Assembly: GCF_000148645.1 (NCBI RefSeq)
Contig: NC_014541.1
Location: forward strand, 1,674,001 to 1,738,000
Source: Ferrimonas balearica DSM 9799
GTDB taxonomy: Bacteria; Pseudomonadota; Gammaproteobacteria; Enterobacterales; Shewanellaceae
Direction: 5' to 3'
DNA: 64,000 nt
A model generated the notes under the pieces. That model had not been told where the DNA came from, made no database searches, and saw nothing but the letters and a program-made list of their open reading frames with translations. The position numbers and the translations under genes are program-made. Shown here in pieces: positions 209 through 48,420 of the stretch. Position 1 is the stretch's first letter. The number at the start of each line of letters is the position of its first letter.

Positions 209-383
209 GTACATTTTCATTGTCTCAAGTTATAAATTTCGCGACGCGAAAGTTAGGGGTGCCTTCAAAATTTTAAGGAGTTGTTTCTTTTACCCGGGCA
301 ATAGTGTGATCTGTGTTTGAGTGTGTTCGACAGTCTTTGCGCATTATTCTGCTCAATTGAATCGAACGCCACGGAACCCGGTA

Positions 384-1346
384 ATGAAACTCGACCAACT
401 CAGCTACAGCCAGCTGAAAGTGCTGATGGCGGTATACAAACATGGCCAGGGCCATCAGGCCGCTAACGAACTGGGCATGACCGCCTCATCCGTCAGCCGG
501 ACCCTGAAAGGGTTGCGCGACATCTTCAAAGACGCGCTGTTCGTTCGCCGCAGTTGTGGCCTGATCCCCACTGACAAAACCGAGCAACTGATCCCGCTGG
601 TAAAGAAGCTAGTGGACCAGTACCAGCAGATTGAGCAACACCACTCAGTGTTCAGTCCGGAAGAGTCCGGCGGCCAGTTCACCATTCTTGCCTATGACGA
701 GTTTGTCTACGCGGTTCAGAAGGTGGTGAATGAGCACATCCTCAATGAAGCCCCCAACCTGAAATTCGAAATTCGCACCCTCAGCCACGACTGCACCGCT
801 GAAGTGGCCAATGGCGACATCGATTTTATGGTGGTGTACGAAGGCTTTGAGGGGAAAGGGCTGAACTGGGACATGTTTTCCGAGACCGGTGACCTCTACA
901 TCCTGGCCAACAGCGAGCACCCCATTCTCGATGCCCAGGTCGACCTCAGCACCCTCAGCCGCTATCCGCTGCTGGAGCTGGACAACTACAACGACCTGAC
1001 CTGTCCGCTGCTGGTGAACCTGTGCCGGGAACTGGGCTTTGAGATGGAGGTGGCCGGCTACACCGACAGCGTCGCCACCGCGATGCGCCTGCTGGCGCAA
1101 TCCAACGCCGTCACCCTCAGCTGCAACCAATTCACCCGCCAGTTTGTGGACATGATCCAGGGCGTCGATTACGTCCGACTGCCGGACCATCTGGCTAAGA
1201 AAATCCGTGAATACCGTCGAACCGATCGCGATATCGGTAACTATATCCTTTACGGCGATATCAATAATTCAGCTTCGTTTAATTGGGTCAAATCGAAATT
1301 GACCTACGGATTAGAAAAGGAGTGGAGACTCGCTTCCCTGAAATAA
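384..1346 (+). CDS. LysR-family transcriptional regulator
   Basis: A 320-residue DNA-binding regulator of normal LysR length. The N-terminal winged helix-turn-helix covers about residues 1-60 (KVLMAVYKHGQGHQAANELG followed by a recognition helix with SSVSRTLKGL), and the remainder is the two-lobe effector-binding domain. The ATG at 384 starts the canonical MKLDQLSYSQL N-terminus; an in-frame ATG further upstream (321) would add an extension with no family resemblance. It is co-oriented with the molybdoenzyme operon and ends about 90 bp before it, so it is the likely local regulator. Its effector cannot be deduced. Confidence 0.88.
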   Translation: MKLDQLSYSQLKVLMAVYKHGQGHQAANELGMTASSVSRTLKGLRDIFKDALFVRRSCGLIPTDKTEQLIPLVKKLVDQYQQIEQHHSVFSPEESGGQFTILAYDEFVYAVQKVVNEHILNEAPNLKFEIRTLSHDCTAEVANGDIDFMVVYEGFEGKGLNWDMFSETGDLYILANSEHPILDAQVDLSTLSRYPLLELDNYNDLTCPLLVNLCRELGFEMEVAGYTDSVATAMRLLAQSNAVTLSCNQFTRQFVDMIQGVDYVRLPDHLAKKIREYRRTDRDIGNYILYGDINNSASFNWVKSKLTYGLEKEWRLASLK

Positions 1347-1437: not shown

Positions 1438-1605
1438 GTGGAATTCTTACTCTTCTGTATCGCTGCCTACGCCGCCTATCTGGTGCTGAAAAAGCCCGAA
1501 AAAGAGGCCCTGGCAGACCGTTTGCTCTTTGCCTGTATGGGACTGAGCTTGTTTATCTGGATCATGATGTCCTGGGGCATTTTGATGCCCATCGGCAACT
1601 ATTAA
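1438..1605 (+). CDS. 55-residue two-helix membrane peptide preceding the DsbB-like gene
   Basis: An intact GTG-initiated frame of 55 codons, VEFLLFC...PIGNY, ending 12 bp before the DsbB-like gene. It has two hydrophobic segments (about residues 3-17 and 29-50) separated by a charged hairpin, KKPEKEALADR. It is almost certainly real because a paralogue of identical length, also GTG-initiated and with the same VEFLLFC start, KPEKE turn and S-(L/V)-FIW second helix, precedes the second DsbB-like gene at 46774. AATTGAGG about 10 nt upstream could be the ribosome site. I recognise no named family; a partner or assembly subunit of the DsbB-like protein is inferred from position. Confidence 0.8.
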   Translation: MEFLLFCIAAYAAYLVLKKPEKEALADRLLFACMGLSLFIWIMMSWGILMPIGNY

Positions 1606-1617
1606 CGAGGAGCGCTC

Positions 1618-3081
1618 ATGCAAGCCCGTGACGCAATTTTTAATAAGCTGGCCTCGTTTGCCTCAGTGGTCATTATGGCCCTGCCGGTGGGGATCGCCTG
1701 CTTTATCTTTGGTTTCCTGATGAAGGATAACCCCTGCGCCTTCTGCTGGCAGGAACGGACCGCCATGATCCTGGTGGCACTGACCGCCCTCTACATTGTG
1801 CGCTTCGGCCTCAAACCCAAATACATCGGTGCGCTGGTGTGGCTCGGCATCTACGGTGCCTGGATGGCCTCCGTACACACCTCCATCAACCTCGGCAGCG
1901 ACATTGGCCAGGGTTTCTCCGTCAAGATCATGGGCGCGCACACCTACACCTGGGCGTTGCTGGTGTTCGTGGTGGTGCTGGTGGTTGTGGCCGCGCTGAT
2001 GATGTTCCTCGGTAACCGTTTCCCCGGTAAGCCGACCCAGACTCCGGGCAACCCGGCGCTGGTGAAGGTGGTCGCGTCCGTCTTCCTGTTCGTCATCTCC
2101 GGCAACATCGTGCAGGCCTTTACCCAGACTGGTCCGCCGCCGTTCGTTGGCCAGGACAGCCCCGGCCGCGTTTCCTTTAACCCCAAATTCATGAGCTGGG
2201 AGCTGGACCACTGGCCGACCTATGGCCCGGATGCCCGCGGCGCGTATGCCATCAGCGACCCGAGCTACGACCAGGTTAACCGTACCAGCCCGATGTTTGA
2301 CGGTGCCGCTCTGCCGGTCTCCGCCCAGCAGGCACTGCCGGCCGCCATCAGCAGCCGCATCACCGCCATTGACTATGAGCCGGTCAGCCAGCGCTACGCC
2401 GTAGTGACCAGCGACATGTGGGTCTACATCCTCGACAACAGCCTCAGCCGCATCCTGACTCAAGCCAAGATCGACGGCATGTACATGATTCACATCAGCC
2501 CGCTGGCCGGTGTGGCCTTTACCTCCGAAAACGAACTGGTGGTACTGGGTGACAACAAAGCGTTTGCCAAGCTGGTGCTGCAACCGGACCAGACCTGGGA
2601 AGTGAACTACCGCCGCTTTAACGAAAGCACCGATGGCATCGGTGAGTCCGAACGCGGCCAGTTCGCCACCGTTCGCGCCAAGCTGAGCTACGCCGCTGCG
2701 CTGGCTTACGACAAAGACGCAGAGCAACTGGTGACCGTGACTGCCGCTAACGAGCGCGGTGACAACCTGGTGGCCTCCCGTTTCGCTCTGGAAGACATGA
2801 CCCTCAGCGCCGAAGCCAACTTCAACCTGGGTGACAAGCAGGACCGCTGGATGGCCAACCTGCCGATGCTGACCGGTTACGCCATTGATGGTCCCCACAG
2901 CTTCCTGCTGAGCGGTTCCGCTGGCGAGGTGCTGATGATGAACACCGAAACCGGCGCCATTGACCACGGCATCCGCCTTGCGACCCCGGCCAACCCTCAG
3001 GGACTGGTTAAGGTCGGCAACAACCTGATGACCGTTGCCTTCGACAACGGCGTCAACACCCTCTACCGCTTCGAGCTGTAG
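1618..3081 (+). CDS. DsbB-like membrane protein with C-terminal propeller-like domain (copy 1)
   Basis: A 487-residue inner-membrane protein. Residues 1-135 resemble DsbB: four membrane helices and the quinone-proximal motif C40-AF-C43-WQER, matching the CxxC-x-x-ER of DsbB. The second periplasmic loop, which in DsbB carries the cysteine pair that oxidises DsbA, has none here (only C28, C40 and C43 are present). A fifth helix at about 148-168 leads into a roughly 300-residue domain with repeated beta-strand segments reminiscent of a beta-propeller, predicted periplasmic. It lies between the small peptide and the molybdoenzyme genes, suggesting a quinone-linked redox or maturation role. A close paralogue is at 46941-48401. 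It is not a standard DsbB. Confidence 0.8.
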   Translation: MQARDAIFNKLASFASVVIMALPVGIACFIFGFLMKDNPCAFCWQERTAMILVALTALYIVRFGLKPKYIGALVWLGIYGAWMASVHTSINLGSDIGQGFSVKIMGAHTYTWALLVFVVVLVVVAALMMFLGNRFPGKPTQTPGNPALVKVVASVFLFVISGNIVQAFTQTGPPPFVGQDSPGRVSFNPKFMSWELDHWPTYGPDARGAYAISDPSYDQVNRTSPMFDGAALPVSAQQALPAAISSRITAIDYEPVSQRYAVVTSDMWVYILDNSLSRILTQAKIDGMYMIHISPLAGVAFTSENELVVLGDNKAFAKLVLQPDQTWEVNYRRFNESTDGIGESERGQFATVRAKLSYAAALAYDKDAEQLVTVTAANERGDNLVASRFALEDMTLSAEANFNLGDKQDRWMANLPMLTGYAIDGPHSFLLSGSAGEVLMMNTETGAIDHGIRLATPANPQGLVKVGNNLMTVAFDNGVNTLYRFEL

Positions 3082-3093
3082 TCGGACACGTTC

Positions 3094-3155
3094 ACCGGAC
3101 CATCGGAACGGGAGTCCTCGGATCTCATCCCCCGAGCCCGCCCCGATGGTCCGGT
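3094..3155 (+). promoter_or_regulatory. Long intercistronic stem-loop between DsbB-like and molybdoenzyme genes
   Basis: A perfect 13-bp stem, ACCGGACCATCGG (3094-3106) with CCGATGGTCCGGT (3143-3155), encloses an inner 5-bp stem, CTCGG (3117-3121) with CCGAG (3132-3136). No T tract follows, so it is probably not a simple terminator. It fills most of the 113-bp gap and may stabilise or cleave the transcript, or partly attenuate it. Confidence 0.6.
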
Positions 3156-3194
3156 ACACAAGAGCAATGTGATAACAACAACACCGGTAGTGAG

Positions 3195-5399
3195 ATGATG
3201 AAACTGAACAGACGCAACTTCCTGCAGGGAATAGGCGCAACCACAGTGTTTGCCGGCCTCTCCGGTCTGGTTCCTGGGGTCGCGAACGCCCAATCCGCCG
3301 GCGCGCATCCTGGCCTTCTGGCCAAGCGTAATGGCACCATCAAGTACCACAGCTGCCTGCGTAACTGCGCTGCCCGCTGCCTGCTCAAGTTCCGGGTGCA
3401 GGACGGCCGTATGACCTACGTGACCGGCGCTGAGGAGCAAGCCAAAACCGGTACTGCACCCTGCCTGAAGGGACAGAGCTACGTGCAGTACACCTACGCC
3501 CCGGACCGCATTCTCCATCCGATGGAGCGAGCCGGTAAGAAAGGCGAGGGCAAATGGCGCCGCATCAGCTGGGAAGAGGCTTACGCCAAGATCAGCAGCC
3601 GCCTGCAACAGGTGATTGACGAGCACGGCTCCGAAGCCATCCTGCCTTACAGCTACTCCGGCAACTACGGCGCCATCGGCATGAGCGCCTCCGGTGAGCG
3701 CTTCTGGAACCGCATCGGCTCCTCCATCCTCGAGCGCAAAGTGTGCACCTACGCCGCTTACGACGGCCTCGAATCCCTCTACGGCACCTTCCTCGGTCCG
3801 GACCCGGAAGACATCATGCTCTCCGACGTCTACGTGACCTGGGGCCACGATGAGGTGGTGTCCAACGCCATCGCCATCAAACTGATCAACAAAGCCCGCG
3901 ACCGCGGCACCAAGCTGCTGGCGGTGAACCCCCAGCGCACCCCGCTCTGTTCTCAGGCTGACGTGTACCTGCAGCCCAAGCCCAGCACCGACGTGCAGCT
4001 GGCCGCCGGCATCATGAAGTACCTGGTTGAGCATGATCTGGTGGATCATAAGTTCATCGCCGAGCAGACCATCGGTTACGACGCCCTGCTGGAACGCCTC
4101 AATGAACTGAGCTACGACGACATCGAGCGCATCACCGGCGTACCGCGCGCCAAGATGTTCGAGTTTGCCCGCGTTCTGGGCGAAAACGAGAAAACCCTGC
4201 TGCGTATGGGTTATGGCTTCCAGCGCAACTACAACGGCGCCCGCATGTCCCGTGCCGTAGCGATGCTTCTGGCGGTCACCGGCAACTTCGGTAAGCGCGG
4301 TAACGGTCTGATCTACGACAACGTGCAAGCCGGTGGTGGCCTCAATCAGTACCTGGCCAGCGGCAAGTACATGCGCAAGAACAAAGACGCGCAACGCATC
4401 AACATGACCGAACTGGCCAAGGCCATTCACCCCACCCATCCCACCAGCCATGACAAGCCGTCCAAGCCGATCCACGCGATGATCATCTACAACGGCAACC
4501 CGGTGGTGGTGGCCCCGGACACCAACGCGGTGATCGAGGGCATGAAGCGTGAAGACCTGTTTGTGGTCGGCCACGACATGGTGATGACCGACAGTCTCGA
4601 CTACTGCGACATCATCGTTCCGGCCGCCAGCCAGTTCGAAACCTCCGACATCGTCGGCGATTACCACGGCTACTACACCCAGGTGTGTGAGAAGGTGATT
4701 GAGCCCCTGGGCGAGTCCAAGTGCAACTGGACCTTCTTCCGCGAACTGGGCCAGGCCATGGGCTTTGAAGATGAAGCCTTCCAGGCCAGCAACGACGACA
4801 TCATCCGTGAACTGCTGGATACCGACTCTCCGGATTACAAGGGCGTAACCTACGAGCGCCTGATGAAAGAGAAGTTCGTGAAGCTCGACATCCCGCAGCC
4901 GATTCTGGCGGATGGCAAGTACGACACCCCCAGCGGCAAGATCGAATTCAGCAGCCAGATGATGGCCGACGCCGGATTCCACCCGGTACTGGATTGGGGC
5001 CTGCCCGAAGAGGAGATGGAGCCGAAAGAGCGCGAGCTGCCTTTCCGTCTGCTCTCCAGTGGCGTACCACAGCGCGTCAACAGCTCCTTCTACAACGTTC
5101 AGTACATCCGCAACATCCCGGCCTACTACGTCAAGATCCACCCCAACGACGCGGCCAAGCACGGGGTGAAGGATAACGATCAGATCACCCTCTCCAACCA
5201 CCGCGGCGAGGCGACCTTTGTCGCCATGGTCACCACCGGCGTCGGCGAAGGCACCCTGATGGCGCCGAAGTGCAACTGGATCCGTCTCAACCCGAACGGT
5301 AAGAACGGCTGCACCAACTCGCTGACCACCGACAAACTGACCGACATGGGCGGCTGCTCCGCCTACCACTCCACCCGTGTGGCCCTGGCTAAAGTCTGA
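3195..5399 (+). CDS. Tat-exported molybdopterin oxidoreductase catalytic subunit, DMSO reductase superfamily
   Basis: A 734-residue periplasmic bis-MGD enzyme. The twin-arginine signal is NRRNFLQG (residues 5-12), followed by a hydrophobic stretch ending near ANA at 30-32. A [4Fe-4S] site is C54-x3-C58-x3-C62-x27-C90. The molybdenum ligand is probably C184 in KVCTYAAYDG, which aligns with the Cys/Sec position of formate dehydrogenases rather than the Ser of DmsA. Typical MGD-binding segments follow (VTWGHDE, LAVNPQRTPL, MIIYNGNPVV) with the C-terminal dinucleotide domain near 600-734. It is followed by its Fe-S, chaperone and cytochrome b partners. The substrate (an S-, N- or As-oxyanion, formate or other) cannot be fixed. 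Confidence 0.9.
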   Translation: MMKLNRRNFLQGIGATTVFAGLSGLVPGVANAQSAGAHPGLLAKRNGTIKYHSCLRNCAARCLLKFRVQDGRMTYVTGAEEQAKTGTAPCLKGQSYVQYTYAPDRILHPMERAGKKGEGKWRRISWEEAYAKISSRLQQVIDEHGSEAILPYSYSGNYGAIGMSASGERFWNRIGSSILERKVCTYAAYDGLESLYGTFLGPDPEDIMLSDVYVTWGHDEVVSNAIAIKLINKARDRGTKLLAVNPQRTPLCSQADVYLQPKPSTDVQLAAGIMKYLVEHDLVDHKFIAEQTIGYDALLERLNELSYDDIERITGVPRAKMFEFARVLGENEKTLLRMGYGFQRNYNGARMSRAVAMLLAVTGNFGKRGNGLIYDNVQAGGGLNQYLASGKYMRKNKDAQRINMTELAKAIHPTHPTSHDKPSKPIHAMIIYNGNPVVVAPDTNAVIEGMKREDLFVVGHDMVMTDSLDYCDIIVPAASQFETSDIVGDYHGYYTQVCEKVIEPLGESKCNWTFFRELGQAMGFEDEAFQASNDDIIRELLDTDSPDYKGVTYERLMKEKFVKLDIPQPILADGKYDTPSGKIEFSSQMMADAGFHPVLDWGLPEEEMEPKERELPFRLLSSGVPQRVNSSFYNVQYIRNIPAYYVKIHPNDAAKHGVKDNDQITLSNHRGEATFVAMVTTGVGEGTLMAPKCNWIRLNPNGKNGCTNSLTTDKLTDMGGCSAYHSTRVALAKV

Positions 5400-5410
5400 G
5401 GAGAGACAAC

Positions 5411-5959
5411 ATGGACAACCAACTGCAACGGGGCTTCGTGTTCCGCCAGGAAAACTGCGTAGGCTGCCAGGCATGCACCATCGCCTGCCAGATCCACAAC
5501 GAACTGCCGGAGAACGTGCGTTTCCGCAAGGTCGACCGTTACGAAGTGAAGCGTGGTGATGACGAGATTGACGTCTGGCTGACCCACTCCTGCATGCACT
5601 GCGGCAACCCGGCCTGCCTGATGGTCTGCCCCGCGGGCGCCTTCACCACCCGTGATGACGGCCTGGTGGTACTGGACCGCGAGCGCTGCACCAGCTGTGG
5701 CCTGTGTGTCAGCGCCTGCCCTTACGACGCCATCGCCGTGGACCCCCGCGACGGTCGTGCCGCCAAGTGCAACATGTGTGTTGAGCTGATTGACCAGGGC
5801 CAGCAACCGGCCTGTGTCACCGGCTGCACCGTCGGCTGTCTGACCACCGACAACGTCAGCCAGTTGCTGAAAAGCAACACTCACGCCAGCAAAACCGGCG
5901 TTGGCTACCGCGACAACCTGACCAAACCGAACATGGTGATCATTAAGGAGCGCGTCTGA
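5411..5959 (+). CDS. Four-cluster ferredoxin electron-transfer subunit (DmsB/PhsB type)
   Basis: 182 residues containing four cysteine groups: C16-x2-C19-x2-C22-x3-C26, CMHCGNPACLMVCP, CTSCGLCVSACP and a CNMC/CVTGC pair. This is the pattern of subunits with four [4Fe-4S] clusters that wire the molybdenum subunit to a membrane cytochrome. It has no signal peptide; such subunits are usually co-exported with the Tat-tagged catalytic subunit. It starts 11 bp after the catalytic gene with a GGAGAG ribosome site and its stop overlaps the next ATG (TGATG), implying translational coupling. Confidence 0.9.
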   Translation: MDNQLQRGFVFRQENCVGCQACTIACQIHNELPENVRFRKVDRYEVKRGDDEIDVWLTHSCMHCGNPACLMVCPAGAFTTRDDGLVVLDRERCTSCGLCVSACPYDAIAVDPRDGRAAKCNMCVELIDQGQQPACVTGCTVGCLTTDNVSQLLKSNTHASKTGVGYRDNLTKPNMVIIKERV

Positions 5960-6549
5960 TGTCTCTGCCATTCGGGGCGCAGGCCGCCCATTACCAGGCC
6001 TTTAAAGACATGGTGTTCCAGCCGGGACTGGCAAAAAACCTGGACGCGTTAATCGCGGTGCTGGAGCAGAGCGGCCTTTACCCCGAATTGCTGGCGGAGG
6101 CCCGCACGCTGCGGCCCGAGCCACAGCGACTGGAGTACGACTTTAACCGCATGTGCATCGGGCCCTACCGCCTGACTGTGCCGCCTTATGAGTCGGTCTA
6201 TCGCAGTGGCAAATCGGTGCTGAACAGCCACCACACTGTCGACGTACACGCTTACTACCAGCAACTCGGCCTGACCATCGAGCCGCGCTTTAACGAGCCG
6301 GCCGACTACATCGGCAACGAGTTGGAGTTCCTCTACTGCGCGTCTGCGCTGGCCAGCGAGCATCGCCGTGCCGGACGCGACGAGATCGCGGAAGAGCTCG
6401 ACCAGCTGGCTCGTCAATTCCTGACCGAGCACCTGGGACTGTGGTGCGGCGATTTCGCCGACAAGATGGTGGCCCATGCCCGCGAGCCGTTCTGGCGCCT
6501 CTATGGCGTCGCACTTAATCACTACGTTCAGTCACAGATGACCCATTGA
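5959..6549 (+). CDS. TorD/DmsD-family chaperone for the molybdoenzyme
   Basis: A 196-residue all-helical cytoplasmic protein. The segment YDFNRMCIGP followed by PPYESVY (about residues 55-76) is the signature of TorD/DmsD/NarJ proteins, which bind the Tat signal of a partner molybdoenzyme and hold it for cofactor insertion before export. It lies within the operon, with its ATG overlapping the stop of the Fe-S gene, and the partner has a twin-arginine signal. The signature, size and context agree. Confidence 0.88.
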   Translation: MSLPFGAQAAHYQAFKDMVFQPGLAKNLDALIAVLEQSGLYPELLAEARTLRPEPQRLEYDFNRMCIGPYRLTVPPYESVYRSGKSVLNSHHTVDVHAYYQQLGLTIEPRFNEPADYIGNELEFLYCASALASEHRRAGRDEIAEELDQLARQFLTEHLGLWCGDFADKMVAHAREPFWRLYGVALNHYVQSQMTH

Positions 6550-6599
6550 TGCCGGGGGGCAATCCCCCCGCGCAATGCACGTTGTTAAAAGGACGAATC

Positions 6600-7571
6600 A
6601 TGAAAATTCGATTTGGCATACTCCCGGCCCTGTTGCTGGCCGGAGCCACCTTTGGGGCCGTCGCGCAGCAAGCTGAAGCGCCGCAGCCGCAACTCTGGAG
6701 CCCGGTAACCCACGAAGTGGTGCAGGGTGACATTCCCGAGATCCGCGGCATCGCCGCTGACCACGTACTGCCGGCATCCAGCTGGACCGTCAACCAGGCC
6801 GAACTGACCGGCCTGGATACCCTGGGCAATGCCCAGTTCAATGCCGACCTGCTGCTGTTTGGCGTGTTCGGTGTGGCGGTGCTGTTTGCCCTGTTTGTGA
6901 TGATCAACGGCAAAGCCAAGCTGACCCACGGCTTCTCCGGCAAGCTGGTGCCGCGCTGGTCCAAAACCGATGTGGCCGTGCACTGGATCGGCGCCATCGC
7001 CTGTATGGGCCTGATCCTCACTGGTCTGGTGATGGCGGCGGGCCGCTTCTATCTCGACCCGTTGATGATGGAGGCGCGCTGGCAGGGCCTGGTCAACGCC
7101 ATGGTGGCGTGGCACAACTTCCTGGCCTTCCCCTTTATCGTCGGTGCGCTGGTGATGATGGTGAAATGGGCCCCGAAGCAGATGCCGGAAGCCTGCGACC
7201 TGGCCTGGTTTAAATCCTGCGGTGGCTACCTGAACTTCGGCAGCTTCAAAGGCAAGCACCCGGACGCGGGTTTTGCTAACGCCGGTGAGAAGCTGTGGTT
7301 CTGGTGCTTCACCCTGTTCGGCCTGATCCTGATTGGTACCGGCCTGGTGATGATGTTCCCGTCTCTGGTCAGCACCAAAGACGCGGCTAACCTCGCTCTG
7401 GTGCTGCACCTGGTGGGGGCACTGATTGTGGGTGCCTTCTCGGTGGTGCACATCTTTATGGCCACCATCATGTCGGAAGGCGGCATGGAGTGCATGGTGT
7501 CCGGCCAGTGTGATGAAAACTGGGCCAAGCAGCACCACAACCTGTGGTACGACAAGCTGAGCCGTTCCTGA
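6600..7571 (+). CDS. FdnI-type cytochrome b subunit, quinone-linked membrane anchor
   Basis: A 323-residue protein with a signal peptide (MKIRFGILPALLLAGATFGAVA), a periplasmic segment, one extra helix near 85-100, then the four-helix cytochrome b core of formate dehydrogenase gamma subunits. Candidate haem histidines include HW in VAVHWIGA, AWHNFLAF, VLHLVG and VVHIFMA. It should pass electrons between quinones and the Fe-S subunit. The ATG at 6600 follows AAAAGGA; an upstream in-frame ATG at 6546 has no such site and would spoil the signal peptide. It is the last gene of the operon, followed at once by a strong terminator. Confidence 0.9.
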   Translation: MKIRFGILPALLLAGATFGAVAQQAEAPQPQLWSPVTHEVVQGDIPEIRGIAADHVLPASSWTVNQAELTGLDTLGNAQFNADLLLFGVFGVAVLFALFVMINGKAKLTHGFSGKLVPRWSKTDVAVHWIGAIACMGLILTGLVMAAGRFYLDPLMMEARWQGLVNAMVAWHNFLAFPFIVGALVMMVKWAPKQMPEACDLAWFKSCGGYLNFGSFKGKHPDAGFANAGEKLWFWCFTLFGLILIGTGLVMMFPSLVSTKDAANLALVLHLVGALIVGAFSVVHIFMATIMSEGGMECMVSGQCDENWAKQHHNLWYDKLSRS

Positions 7572-46194: not shown

Positions 46195-46773
46195 GGTCGA
46201 TGTCCCTGTTAACCGAGCGGTATCCCCAGTTTGCCAAAATTCGGGCGCGCTGAAAAATCGAACAGTTGGGGCGGCTTGTCGAAAAAACGCGCTTCGATAC
46301 CGGGAATTGACGTCATTTTCACCAGCGTAGTCGCCCGCTGCTTTGTTGGTCAAAGCGGAGGCGCGTCACGCGGGTCGTGTCCGGGCGAGAAGAAATCTAC
46401 CTGGCGCGGACCCGTGCTGTGAGGATGGGCGGTATCGCGGCGGAAGGTCGAGGCGGATCACCCTCCAAGGTCCGGAATTTGTGGGGCGTCTCAATTGACG
46501 TTCAAAAGCGGGAATTCTCGCAAAACTCCGGGGCGAAAACTGAAAAAGCTTATCTATCACCAAAGGGGTAATTTGGGCGGATTTTCGCATTTGCAAACCG
46601 TGGCTAAGTCGTGCAGGTGCCAGTGTGAACCCGGTGACATTTTTTCATTTTTACCCTGCGTAATCTTCTCCCCCGAAAACGGTGGTGACCGAAACCCTAC
46701 TGCGAGTTCAACGCGTTAGGGCGGCCCATCCCAACCTCGAAACGGCCACACTGGCCGAATTTTGGAGAATACC
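46195..46773. other. 579-bp intergenic region between Lol-like operon and the second DsbB-like cassette
   Basis: Divergent promoters for both units must lie here. No frame is convincing. The base composition is more AT-rich than the flanking genes around 46490-46700. The only structure noted is the hairpin CGGCCA/TGGCCG at 46743-46757. Confidence 0.5.
46743..46757 (+). promoter_or_regulatory. Hairpin in the leader of the second DsbB-like cassette
   Basis: CGGCCA and TGGCCG pair around CAC, followed by AATTTT, 17 bp upstream of the small-peptide GTG. It occupies a position like the hairpin at 1382-1405 before the first cassette. Confidence 0.4.
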
Positions 46774-46941
46774 GTGGAGTTTTTGCTCTTCTGTCTGGTG
46801 TTTGTGAGCGCCTTCCTGGTGGCGTTCAAGCCCGAAAAAGAGAAGCTGGCCAGCCGCCTGCTGGTGATCAGCATTCTGCTCAGCGTCTTTATCTGGTTCG
46901 TTATGACCGCAACCATGATCATTCCGGCGGGGAACCTGTAA
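46774..46941 (+). CDS. 55-residue two-helix membrane peptide (paralogue of 1438-1605)
   Basis: GTG-initiated, 55 codons, stop overlapping the next ATG (TAATG), with TTGGAGAAT as ribosome site. The two hydrophobic segments flank FKPEKEKLASR. It shares VEFLLFC, KPEKE and S-x-FIW with the first copy and has exactly the same length, which supports both as genuine genes. Overlap with the DsbB-like gene implies stoichiometric co-translation. Confidence 0.82.
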   Translation: MEFLLFCLVFVSAFLVAFKPEKEKLASRLLVISILLSVFIWFVMTATMIIPAGNL

Positions 46942-48401
46942 TGAACAAAGCACTTCTCAATGATGTGATGATGAACCGCATCGTAGCGCTGGCCTCTCTG
47001 GCCCTGATTGCGCTGCCGGTTGGTATCGCCTGTATCATCCTGGGCTTCGGCATGGGCGATAACCCCTGTGCCCTGTGCTGGCAGGAGCGCACCGCCATGG
47101 TGCTGGTCTCCCTGATTGCGCTGTTTATCACCCGCTACGGCCTGAAGCCGAAGTACATCGGCCTGCTGCTGCTGACCGCCATCTACGGTCTGTTCGCCGG
47201 CTACCGTCACAGCTCCGCCCACATCCTGCGCGACATCGGTCAGGGCTTTGGCCCCGCCATCTTCGGCGTGCACACCTACGTGTGGGTAATGGTGGTGTTC
47301 CTGGTGGTGCTGCTGTTCGCTGGCGTGCTGTTGCTGCTGCAGGGTGACAAGCTGGTTCAGTGGACCGAAAAAACCCGCTGGGAAGGCCTGAACAAGGCCG
47401 CAGCCAACGTGTTCCTGGTGGTGATCGCGTTCAACATCGTGCAAGCCTTCAGCCAGACCGGCCCGGCGCCGTTCCTGGGCCAGGGCGACCCGGTTCGCAT
47501 GAGCTTCAACCCGCAGAACATCATCTGGTCTGCTGGCAAGTGGGATGGCCTGTCCAAGGTGTCTCTGCGTGGCGCTTACTCCATCGCCAAGCCGGACTTT
47601 ACCGATATGCCGACCAACGACGCGACCCGCGCTGCGGCTGACACCACCATTGAAGCCGTTAAGAGCGTGACTCTGCCGGCTGAGATCGAAGGTGCGGTAA
47701 CCGGCATCAGCTACAACCCGAACAGCCAGCTGTTCGCCGTTGTGACCAACAAAAACTGGGTAGCGTTCCTGAATCAAGACCTGACCCAGGTACTGGCCAA
47801 AGCCAAGATCGATCCCAACTTCTCCGTTGAGATCTCCAACCTGGCCGGTGTGGCGTTCGACAGCGACAACAGCGTACTGGTGACTGCGGACCACAAGAGC
47901 TTCGCCCGCGTTGCTTACGACCCGCAAGCCAAGCTGGCTGACTACTACGCCAACTTCTTTGAAGGTACTGACGGCATCACCGAGTTCAAGCGTGGCCGTT
48001 TCGAAACCGCCCGTGCCAAGTACAACTACGTTGGCAGCGCTGGCTTTGATGCCGCCAACAACGAGTACCTGATGGTGACTCTGCCGGACGTGAAGCGTAA
48101 CAACTTCGTGCTGGTTCGCCTGAGCGGTGCCGACTTCAAACTGAACAGCGAGCGCGTTCTGAGCATCGACACCCAGGCTCTGCCGATGGTAACCGGTGTG
48201 GTACTGAGCGGTGATGAGCTGGTGATGCTGAGCCAGTCCGGCCAGCAGCTGCTGACCGCTGACGCTGCCACCGGTGCGGTTCACGGTGCCATCAACCTGG
48301 CGGAAGCCGGCAACCTGCAGGCGCTGACCGAGCAGGACAACCACCTGCTGGTGGTGGACGCTGCCGAAGGCCGTAACCAGGTGCGTTTCTACGCGAAATA
48401 A
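46941..48401 (+). CDS. DsbB-like membrane protein with C-terminal propeller-like domain (copy 2)
   Basis: 486 residues, colinear with the protein at 1618-3081. The motif C43-AL-C46-WQER follows DNP, GLKPKYIG and HTYVW are conserved, and no cysteines occur in the second periplasmic loop or beyond. The C-terminal domain keeps the strand repeats (SQTGPAPFLGQ, YNPNSQLFAVVTNKNWVAFL, LAGVAFDSDNSVLV). It is not attached to a reductase operon and has its own strong terminator, so it may serve a general role or an enzyme encoded elsewhere. Confidence 0.8.
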   Translation: MNKALLNDVMMNRIVALASLALIALPVGIACIILGFGMGDNPCALCWQERTAMVLVSLIALFITRYGLKPKYIGLLLLTAIYGLFAGYRHSSAHILRDIGQGFGPAIFGVHTYVWVMVVFLVVLLFAGVLLLLQGDKLVQWTEKTRWEGLNKAAANVFLVVIAFNIVQAFSQTGPAPFLGQGDPVRMSFNPQNIIWSAGKWDGLSKVSLRGAYSIAKPDFTDMPTNDATRAAADTTIEAVKSVTLPAEIEGAVTGISYNPNSQLFAVVTNKNWVAFLNQDLTQVLAKAKIDPNFSVEISNLAGVAFDSDNSVLVTADHKSFARVAYDPQAKLADYYANFFEGTDGITEFKRGRFETARAKYNYVGSAGFDAANNEYLMVTLPDVKRNNFVLVRLSGADFKLNSERVLSIDTQALPMVTGVVLSGDELVMLSQSGQQLLTADAATGAVHGAINLAEAGNLQALTEQDNHLLVVDAAEGRNQVRFYAK

Positions 48402-48420
48402 GTTCGATTTCATCGACGCG

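Follow-up and report, generated by a model that had tools for sequence, protein, structure and literature searches.

The DsbI classification is said to have been founded by Raczko in 2005. DsbI has been present in the literature since at least 2005 (via PMC4460558) and is described in the same source as having five helices, a CXXC in the loop between helices 1 and 2, no second cysteine pair and a periplasmic β-propeller. The absent second pair is also stated in PMC7089426, and a definition of the family is given in PMC4152235, which maps DsbI over the gamma- and epsilon-proteobacteria and places the proteins of the DsbL-DsbI pair, as DsbB2, in a cluster separate from it. The dba and dsbI genes are translationally coupled, and DsbI is degraded without Dba in E. 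coli (PMC3167755). In Helicobacter, a fraction of the DsbI partner HP0231 appears in the reduced form when DsbI is lost (PMC3463561), an effect that is partial and leaves motility intact (PMC4597128). The Campylobacter dsbI mutant has the highest peroxide sensitivity, for which its authors favour a separate reductive pathway (PMC7089426), a role repeated by a 2025 review, and Campylobacter AstA keeps 73% of its activity without DsbI (PMC4152235). The accessible parts of the open-access literature on DsbI contain no consensus on its partner or on which way electrons flow.

The window analysed here is a stretch of 64,000 nucleotides (positions 1,674,001-1,738,000) from the genome of Ferrimonas balearica DSM 9799, which comprises 4.28 Mb in one contig. 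It encodes two DsbI proteins, that is, members of the five-helix, single-CxxC propeller branch of the DsbB superfamily, each accompanied by Dba, and we hold this assignment to be practically certain. Copy 1 (type A; 1618-3081, forward strand, 487 aa) and copy 2 (type B; 46941-48401, forward strand, 486 aa) share 41% identity and match the Pfam DsbB family, over residues 12-92 in copy 1. The NCBIfam DsbI model NF050065, which represents Campylobacter, spans the two proteins from one end to the other, with 236 bits for copy 1 (residues 7-483) and 297.5 bits (298 when rounded) for copy 2 (residues 13-480), although neither copy reaches the curated cut-off of 800 set for Campylobacter DsbI. This equivalog cut-off bars the narrow name of the Campylobacter protein, and not membership of a DsbI family defined by its features. 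The profile matched 21 of the 21 sequences scanned, both window copies included, with end-to-end cover shown for the window copies. Of the features listed in PMC4152235, the CxxC in a periplasmic loop is present, and five transmembrane helices followed by a C-terminal propeller are present in the model of copy 1; the absence of a second cysteine pair (PMC4460558) holds throughout the alignment described below. The original prediction had proposed a module beyond the Dsb paradigm, but this is not supported, since a single pair plus a propeller is the anatomy by which published texts define DsbI (PMC4460558, PMC7089426, PMC4152235), and the oddity was therefore already known. The presence of DsbI in gamma-proteobacteria is probably not new either, and the new element may be the type-A clade.

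Copy 1 contains cysteines at residues 28, 40 and 43 only, and copy 2 at residues 31, 43 and 46 only, in matching places. Both carry the motif NPCA(F/L)CWQER, which confirms the lone CxxC-WQER expected in the first periplasmic loop, and both have zero cysteines in the second periplasmic loop and in the C-terminal ~300 residues. In copy 1 the quinone-side CxxC is CAFC (residues 40-43; 1735-1746, forward strand), followed by the invariant W44 and R47; the pair and R47 align with the equivalent cysteine pair and arginine in E. coli DsbB. To follow these residues across homologues we used an alignment of 44 rows (39 distinct sequences and 5 duplicates, window copies included), the remainder of 65 extracted rows once repeats were dropped; three type-A copies (those of genomes G687 and G744 and the second of G709) and the remnant of G737 were left out of it. 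Both CxxC cysteines are kept in 44/44 rows, as are R47, H87, D95, Q98, H108, Y110 and W112, and cysteines occur in none of the 44 rows either within residues 84-110 or after residue 170. The single-CxxC pattern is therefore not due to chance. Membrane residue 28 is a cysteine in 40 of the 44 rows and a serine in the other 4. The Cys-free second loop that had been predicted thus holds across the alignment, as does the invariance of the CxxC, which is joined by R47, H87 and further residues, and the opposite outcome, a second pair conserved in homologues and lost only here, was found in none of the 39 distinct sequences.

Among these 39 sequences, invariant positions make up 5/12 of the CxxC loop, 8/26 of the second periplasmic loop (residues 87-112; 1876-1953, forward strand; H87, D95, Q98, G99, G106, H108, Y110 and W112), 11/38 of the segment spanning the end of helix 5 and the linker to the propeller (residues 163-200; 2104-2217, forward strand; pLDDT <50) and 12/252 of the propeller. 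In E. coli DsbB the CxxC is formed by C41 and C44, the accompanying arginine is R48, and the second pair is C104 and C130, within the stretch that is shortened in DsbI. A profile of 21 sequences matched E. coli DsbB weakly (E 0.08), with the CxxC, the arginine and the histidine at DsbB residue 91 aligned, the last of these to H87; a second aligned piece, at DsbB residues 137-163, scored below zero, and both pieces lie where expected. Between residues 93 and 137 E. coli DsbB has 43 residues, compared with 14 in the DsbI profile. The second cysteine pair that a classical DsbB has in its second periplasmic loop is lacking in the window proteins, which may work partly like DsbB and are not classical DsbB. 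A decayed or truncated DsbB was considered and rejected given the conservation over 39 distinct sequences and the ordinary DsbB encoded in the same genome.

The AlphaFold2 model of copy 1 has five long helices followed by a five-bladed β-propeller (residues 236-487; 2323-3078, forward strand). Confidence is low for the membrane part, and the hydrophobic segments agree by eye with five helices. The predicted structure bears out the earlier claim of a fifth helix leading to a propeller-like domain of about 300 residues, and the modelled C-terminal fold is a propeller rather than a cytoplasmic or unrelated one. The propellers of glutaminyl cyclase and YjiK are 10-15% identical to that of DsbI, which implies no common function. 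Classical DsbB was absent among the 50 matches listed in a structure search with the whole model, a list that the propeller fills and that leaves the membrane part uninformed.

Position 1438, at which the original prediction begins its interval, is not the start of the DsbB-like gene; the interval 1438-1605 (forward strand) is a separate gene, dba, which that prediction overlooked, and dsbI begins at 1618 after a gap of 12 bases. This dba has 55 codons, a GTG start preceded by GAGG and a TAA stop, and matches the NCBIfam Dba model NF050061 with E 1e-5 and 25 bits (cut-off 90). The second dba (46774-46941, forward strand) also has 55 codons and a GTG start, and its TAA overlaps the ATG of dsbI by one base (TAATG). 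A dba gene lies directly upstream of dsbI in 21/21 loci examined, with 55 codons every time (taking a GTG start in L022) and with M1, E2, K19, P20, A26 and P51 invariant, and NF050061 matches 20 of these 21 genes (best E 7.9e-12). When Dba joined to DsbI was submitted to fold prediction, Dba was modelled as a hairpin of two helices, with a pLDDT of 71-80 for residues 1-40. Among 152 genomes of the family the two genes co-occur in 32/33 each way. The two exceptions are G737, which has a DsbI remnant and no dba match, and G712, in which dba is followed by a transposase. The G737 remnant (L134, 1728-2732, reverse strand) is a single open frame, 334 codons long, that lacks the CxxC end and the pre-propeller stretch, whereas in G712 (L129, 1669-2863) integrase core and Tnp HTH transposase genes begin 11 bases past the dba stop, at the place expected for dsbI, with no dsbI in 1.5 kb. 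In G720 (C35:6351-6458) the dba match ends at residue 36 of 55, ahead of a full-length dsbI match. Long antisense open reading frames lie opposite both window dsbI genes (1663-3240, reverse strand, 525 codons; 46716-48413, reverse strand, 565 codons) and are probably a by-product of base composition; a promoter and terminator scan returned 1 promoter-like site, where 1.0 would be expected, and 4 terminator-like sites, where 1.9 would be.

Considering all of these features, we find it fairly likely that DsbI relays electrons between quinone and a partner in the periplasm via one CxxC, with the propeller contacting the partner. C40 and C43, assisted by R47 and H87 at the site of quinone binding, would exchange electrons with quinone as the first DsbB pair does; the shuttle pair of DsbB has been lost. 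A thioredoxin-fold partner would instead be held by three elements, namely the Cys-free second loop, the conserved stretch that follows helix 5 and the propeller in the periplasm, and could then react directly with the CxxC. Dba may serve as a two-helix membrane partner that aids the production or folding of DsbI. We judge the chances about evenly balanced for quinone use, the partner, the direction of electron flow (with oxidation favoured) and the docking role of the propeller. The invariant CxxC, R47 and H87, the pairing with Dba, the 21/21 profile matches, the Helicobacter HP0231 data and the breakdown of DsbI without Dba argue for this explanation. Weighing against it are the scores far below the DsbI cut-off, the copy 1 Dba below its own cut-off, the peroxide and reductive data from Campylobacter, the partial effect in Helicobacter, the 73% AstA activity, the lack of a partner from type-B neighbourhoods, the low-confidence membrane model and the weak DsbB match (E 0.08). 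The conserved residues could also be read as a binding site, in which the CxxC holds a metal or haem cofactor and is not redox-active itself, with the invariant H87, H108 and D95, presumably on the same membrane side, as possible ligands. We find this hardly credible given that a CxxCH motif is absent and that the arginine accompanying the redox CxxC of DsbB is invariant in DsbI.

Copy 1 belongs to a locus that begins with a LysR-type regulator (321-1346, forward strand; Pfam HTH_1 and LysR_substrate), which lies upstream of dba in 7/8 type-A loci compared (the window, L013-L017 and L045), with none found beside L051. The type-A order is dba-dsbI, molybdoenzyme, iron-sulfur subunit, TorD-like chaperone and formate-dehydrogenase-type cytochrome b. 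All four genes after dsbI are on the forward strand of the window. The first (3195-5399, 734 aa) encodes a molybdopterin oxidoreductase of the DMSO reductase family (PF00384, PF01568, PF04879), Tat-exported according to an RRNFLQ signal recognised by eye, and is followed by a DmsB/FdhB-like iron-sulfur subunit (5411-5959; Fer4 families; TIGR02951 at 125 bits, cut-off 214), a TorD/DmsD-type chaperone (5959-6549; PF02613) and a cytochrome b subunit resembling formate dehydrogenase gamma (6546-7571; TIGR01583 at 160 bits, above the cut-off of 115.85). The true start of the last is probably the ATG at 6600, with a signal-peptide-like stretch, by eye, after M19. In formate dehydrogenases the metal ligand is a Cys or Sec, and the residue after it is a catalytic His. 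In an alignment to formate dehydrogenase 7bkb, C184 of the window enzyme aligns with the metal-ligand cysteine, and the next residue, His there, is Thr here, so that the Cys/Sec-His pattern is missing from this enzyme; two other formate dehydrogenases in the comparison aligned less clearly. No description of a link between DsbI and a molybdoenzyme was found in the accessible parts of the open-access literature, with PMC8708908 and PMC12502555 among the papers listed.

The coupling to a molybdoenzyme operon that had been noted is real for one DsbI clade, that of copy 1. There are 14 type-A loci in 13 of the 33 DsbI genomes, and the 11 type-A sequences in a tree of 39 form one side of a branch with 97/96 support. 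The coupling is also optional: copy 2 lies elsewhere, and 18 of 30 related enzyme loci examined (window included) have no dsbI upstream, compared with 12 that do. The enzyme of one locus without dsbI is 85% identical, the LysR gene is closer to the enzyme gene in these 18 loci, and no convincing dsbI remnants were found in them. A related enzyme is present in 54/152 genomes of the family at E 1e-150 or better. The neighbourhood survey proposed earlier thus places the enzyme beside the type-A clade, with no tie for DsbI elsewhere. Genome-wide, the enzyme occurs in 21/33 genomes with DsbI (the G737 remnant counted) and in 33/119 without (p 0.0003), but once the type-A genomes are set aside the figures are 8/20 and 33/119 (p 0.29) and the tie vanishes. 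A genome-wide association between DsbI and the enzyme was therefore rejected.

It is conceivable that type-A DsbI is a dedicated maturation factor, which introduces a disulfide into the enzyme after export or guards its cluster cysteines, as the position of dsbI directly upstream of the enzyme in a single clade would suggest. Cysteines were compared over 14 enzyme rows with dsbI and 18 without, with the window enzyme counted twice. C252, C471, C510 and C693 occur in 10-11/14 rows with dsbI and in 1/18 without, which fits a maturation role, although by their numbers they follow one subclade and are missing from 3-4 of the rows with dsbI. C498 is present in 14/14 and 5/18 rows, respectively, and C706 and C721 are present in all 32. 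No cysteine of the enzyme, iron-sulfur subunit or chaperone is present in every dsbI operon and absent from all others; for the cytochrome b subunit the comparison covers only 16 rows, most of them incomplete at locus ends. A disulfide in the molybdoenzyme as the target of DsbI was thus rejected, as no cysteine comes and goes cleanly with the gene. When the presence of dsbI is mapped on a rapidly built tree of 31 enzyme rows, 4 changes are required, at least 3 of them forced by supported branches. Together with the lack of a cleanly co-occurring cysteine and the 18/30 loci without dsbI, this makes dsbI at most an optional helper of the enzyme, and we consider a dedicated maturation factor quite improbable. 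An unlikely possibility is that the copy 1 clade is a DsbI specialised for the complex iron-sulfur molybdoenzyme, whose thiol state it would read or set from a quinone pool shared with the enzyme. The Cys-free loop (H87, D95, Q98, H108, Y110 and W112), together with the linker that follows helix 5, would then serve as a novel site for direct docking in place of the shuttle pair of DsbB.

The molybdoenzyme operon follows copy 1 only; apart from a dba of its own, copy 2 lies among different genes. Type-B loci consist of dba-dsbI with no such enzyme adjoining, and their neighbours are common to close relatives only. LolA-, MacB- and CAP-like genes flank copy 2, L021 and L024, and SIMPL and WD40-like genes flank L046 and, by eye, G737. 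Among 20 open reading frames around 9 type-B loci, no family recurred at two distant loci, and no DsbI partner could be named from these neighbourhoods. In the Shewanella loci L018 (3263-4414) and L023 (11625-12776), a chromate-transporter-like gene lies after dsbI, the two being 81% identical. That no partner enzyme is fixed beside type B would suit a sensor, in which the CxxC reports the state of the quinone pool to a propeller that signals without catalytic turnover, and the conserved Cys-free second loop and linker would be compatible with such signalling. The redox effect on HP0231 in Helicobacter (PMC3463561) speaks against it, and we regard a sensor as highly improbable.

The electron transfer that we favour would operate beside a set of other Dsb proteins. 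The genome encodes one ordinary DsbB with both cysteine pairs, a DsbA with a CPHC active site and a DsbC-like protein with CGYC. It also encodes a second DsbA-like protein, apparently a lipoprotein, in which the active site is CGGC and the linker is rich in alanine (L120, 1438-2166). DsbI thus adds a further branch rather than providing the sole route, and the CGGC lipoprotein is a possible candidate for its partner. A thioredoxin-family match also lies in a frame of 594 codons, which from its size may be DsbD. The genome contains an arylsulfotransferase gene (PF05935; G000:C1:97972-99291), a family known elsewhere as a Dsb client (PMC4152235, PMC3167755).

We favour oxidation as the direction of electron flow, with a reductive reading as a serious if somewhat unlikely rival. 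DsbI would in that case take electrons from quinol and maintain thiols of the periplasm in the reduced state; iron-sulfur or molybdenum enzymes exposed there to peroxide would be an example of the proteins concerned. The peroxide-sensitive Campylobacter mutant, most sensitive of those described, and the reductive pathway proposed by its authors (PMC7089426) are consistent with this, as is the place of copy 1 within a molybdoenzyme operon, but 18/30 related molybdoenzyme loci have no dsbI, and the genome already has the DsbC-like protein and the DsbD-sized frame. The Helicobacter data favour oxidation (PMC3463561). They also weaken the earlier argument that DsbA cannot be oxidised without a second pair, though the effect reported there is partial (PMC4597128).

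DsbI was detected in 7/14 genomes of the genus, 33/152 of the family (one being the G737 remnant) and 9/394 of the order, in counts that include the host's own genome and come from overlapping samples searched with differing queries. In a class sample of 274 genomes, full-length DsbI was found in the window's own genome only, with partial matches in 8 others, and the 2/398 positive genomes of a phylum sample are both from the same family as the host. This patchy distribution suggests gain by transfer and frequent loss. Record titles for 12 related loci in named genomes comprise 6 Ferrimonas, 4 Shewanella and 2 Marinobacter, of which the Marinobacter name looks wrong. A dba-dsbI pair was also observed on a conjugative Salmonella enterica plasmid (L043, 337-2005; CP074271.1), near pflB, acetate kinase and megL genes; a search of E. 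coli genomes at megablast level returned nothing near this copy, and the viral contigs searched contained no relative. No open-access paper on DsbI and Ferrimonas was found. Ferrimonas and Shewanella are DsbI hosts outside the pathogens in which the protein was studied, and its role can be cleanly tested in them because close relatives differ in dba-dsbI at the same place. The window copies thus provide a useful test case for a little-understood family, for which type A supplies one concrete candidate client.

With the DsbI of the DsbL-DsbI pair (DsbB2) of uropathogenic E. coli and Salmonella, the window proteins have in common the name and the wider DsbB superfamily. Compared with E. coli DsbB, helices 1-3 with the CxxC, arginine and histidine align, weakly (E 0.08), but DsbI has a shorter stretch where DsbB carries its second pair, and possesses in addition a fifth helix and a propeller. 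The closest likeness is to Campylobacter jejuni DsbI, compared here solely via the NCBI model, and to Helicobacter pylori DsbI (HP0595), the anatomy of both being taken from published descriptions: five helices, a first-loop CxxC with a following arginine, no second pair and a periplasmic propeller. As in Campylobacter, dba lies upstream of dsbI, and the Campylobacter-based NCBI Dba model is 55 positions long. Unlike Campylobacter DsbI, the window copies fall short of the cut-off of 800, at 236 and 298 bits, and the clade of copy 1 is tied to a molybdoenzyme operon.
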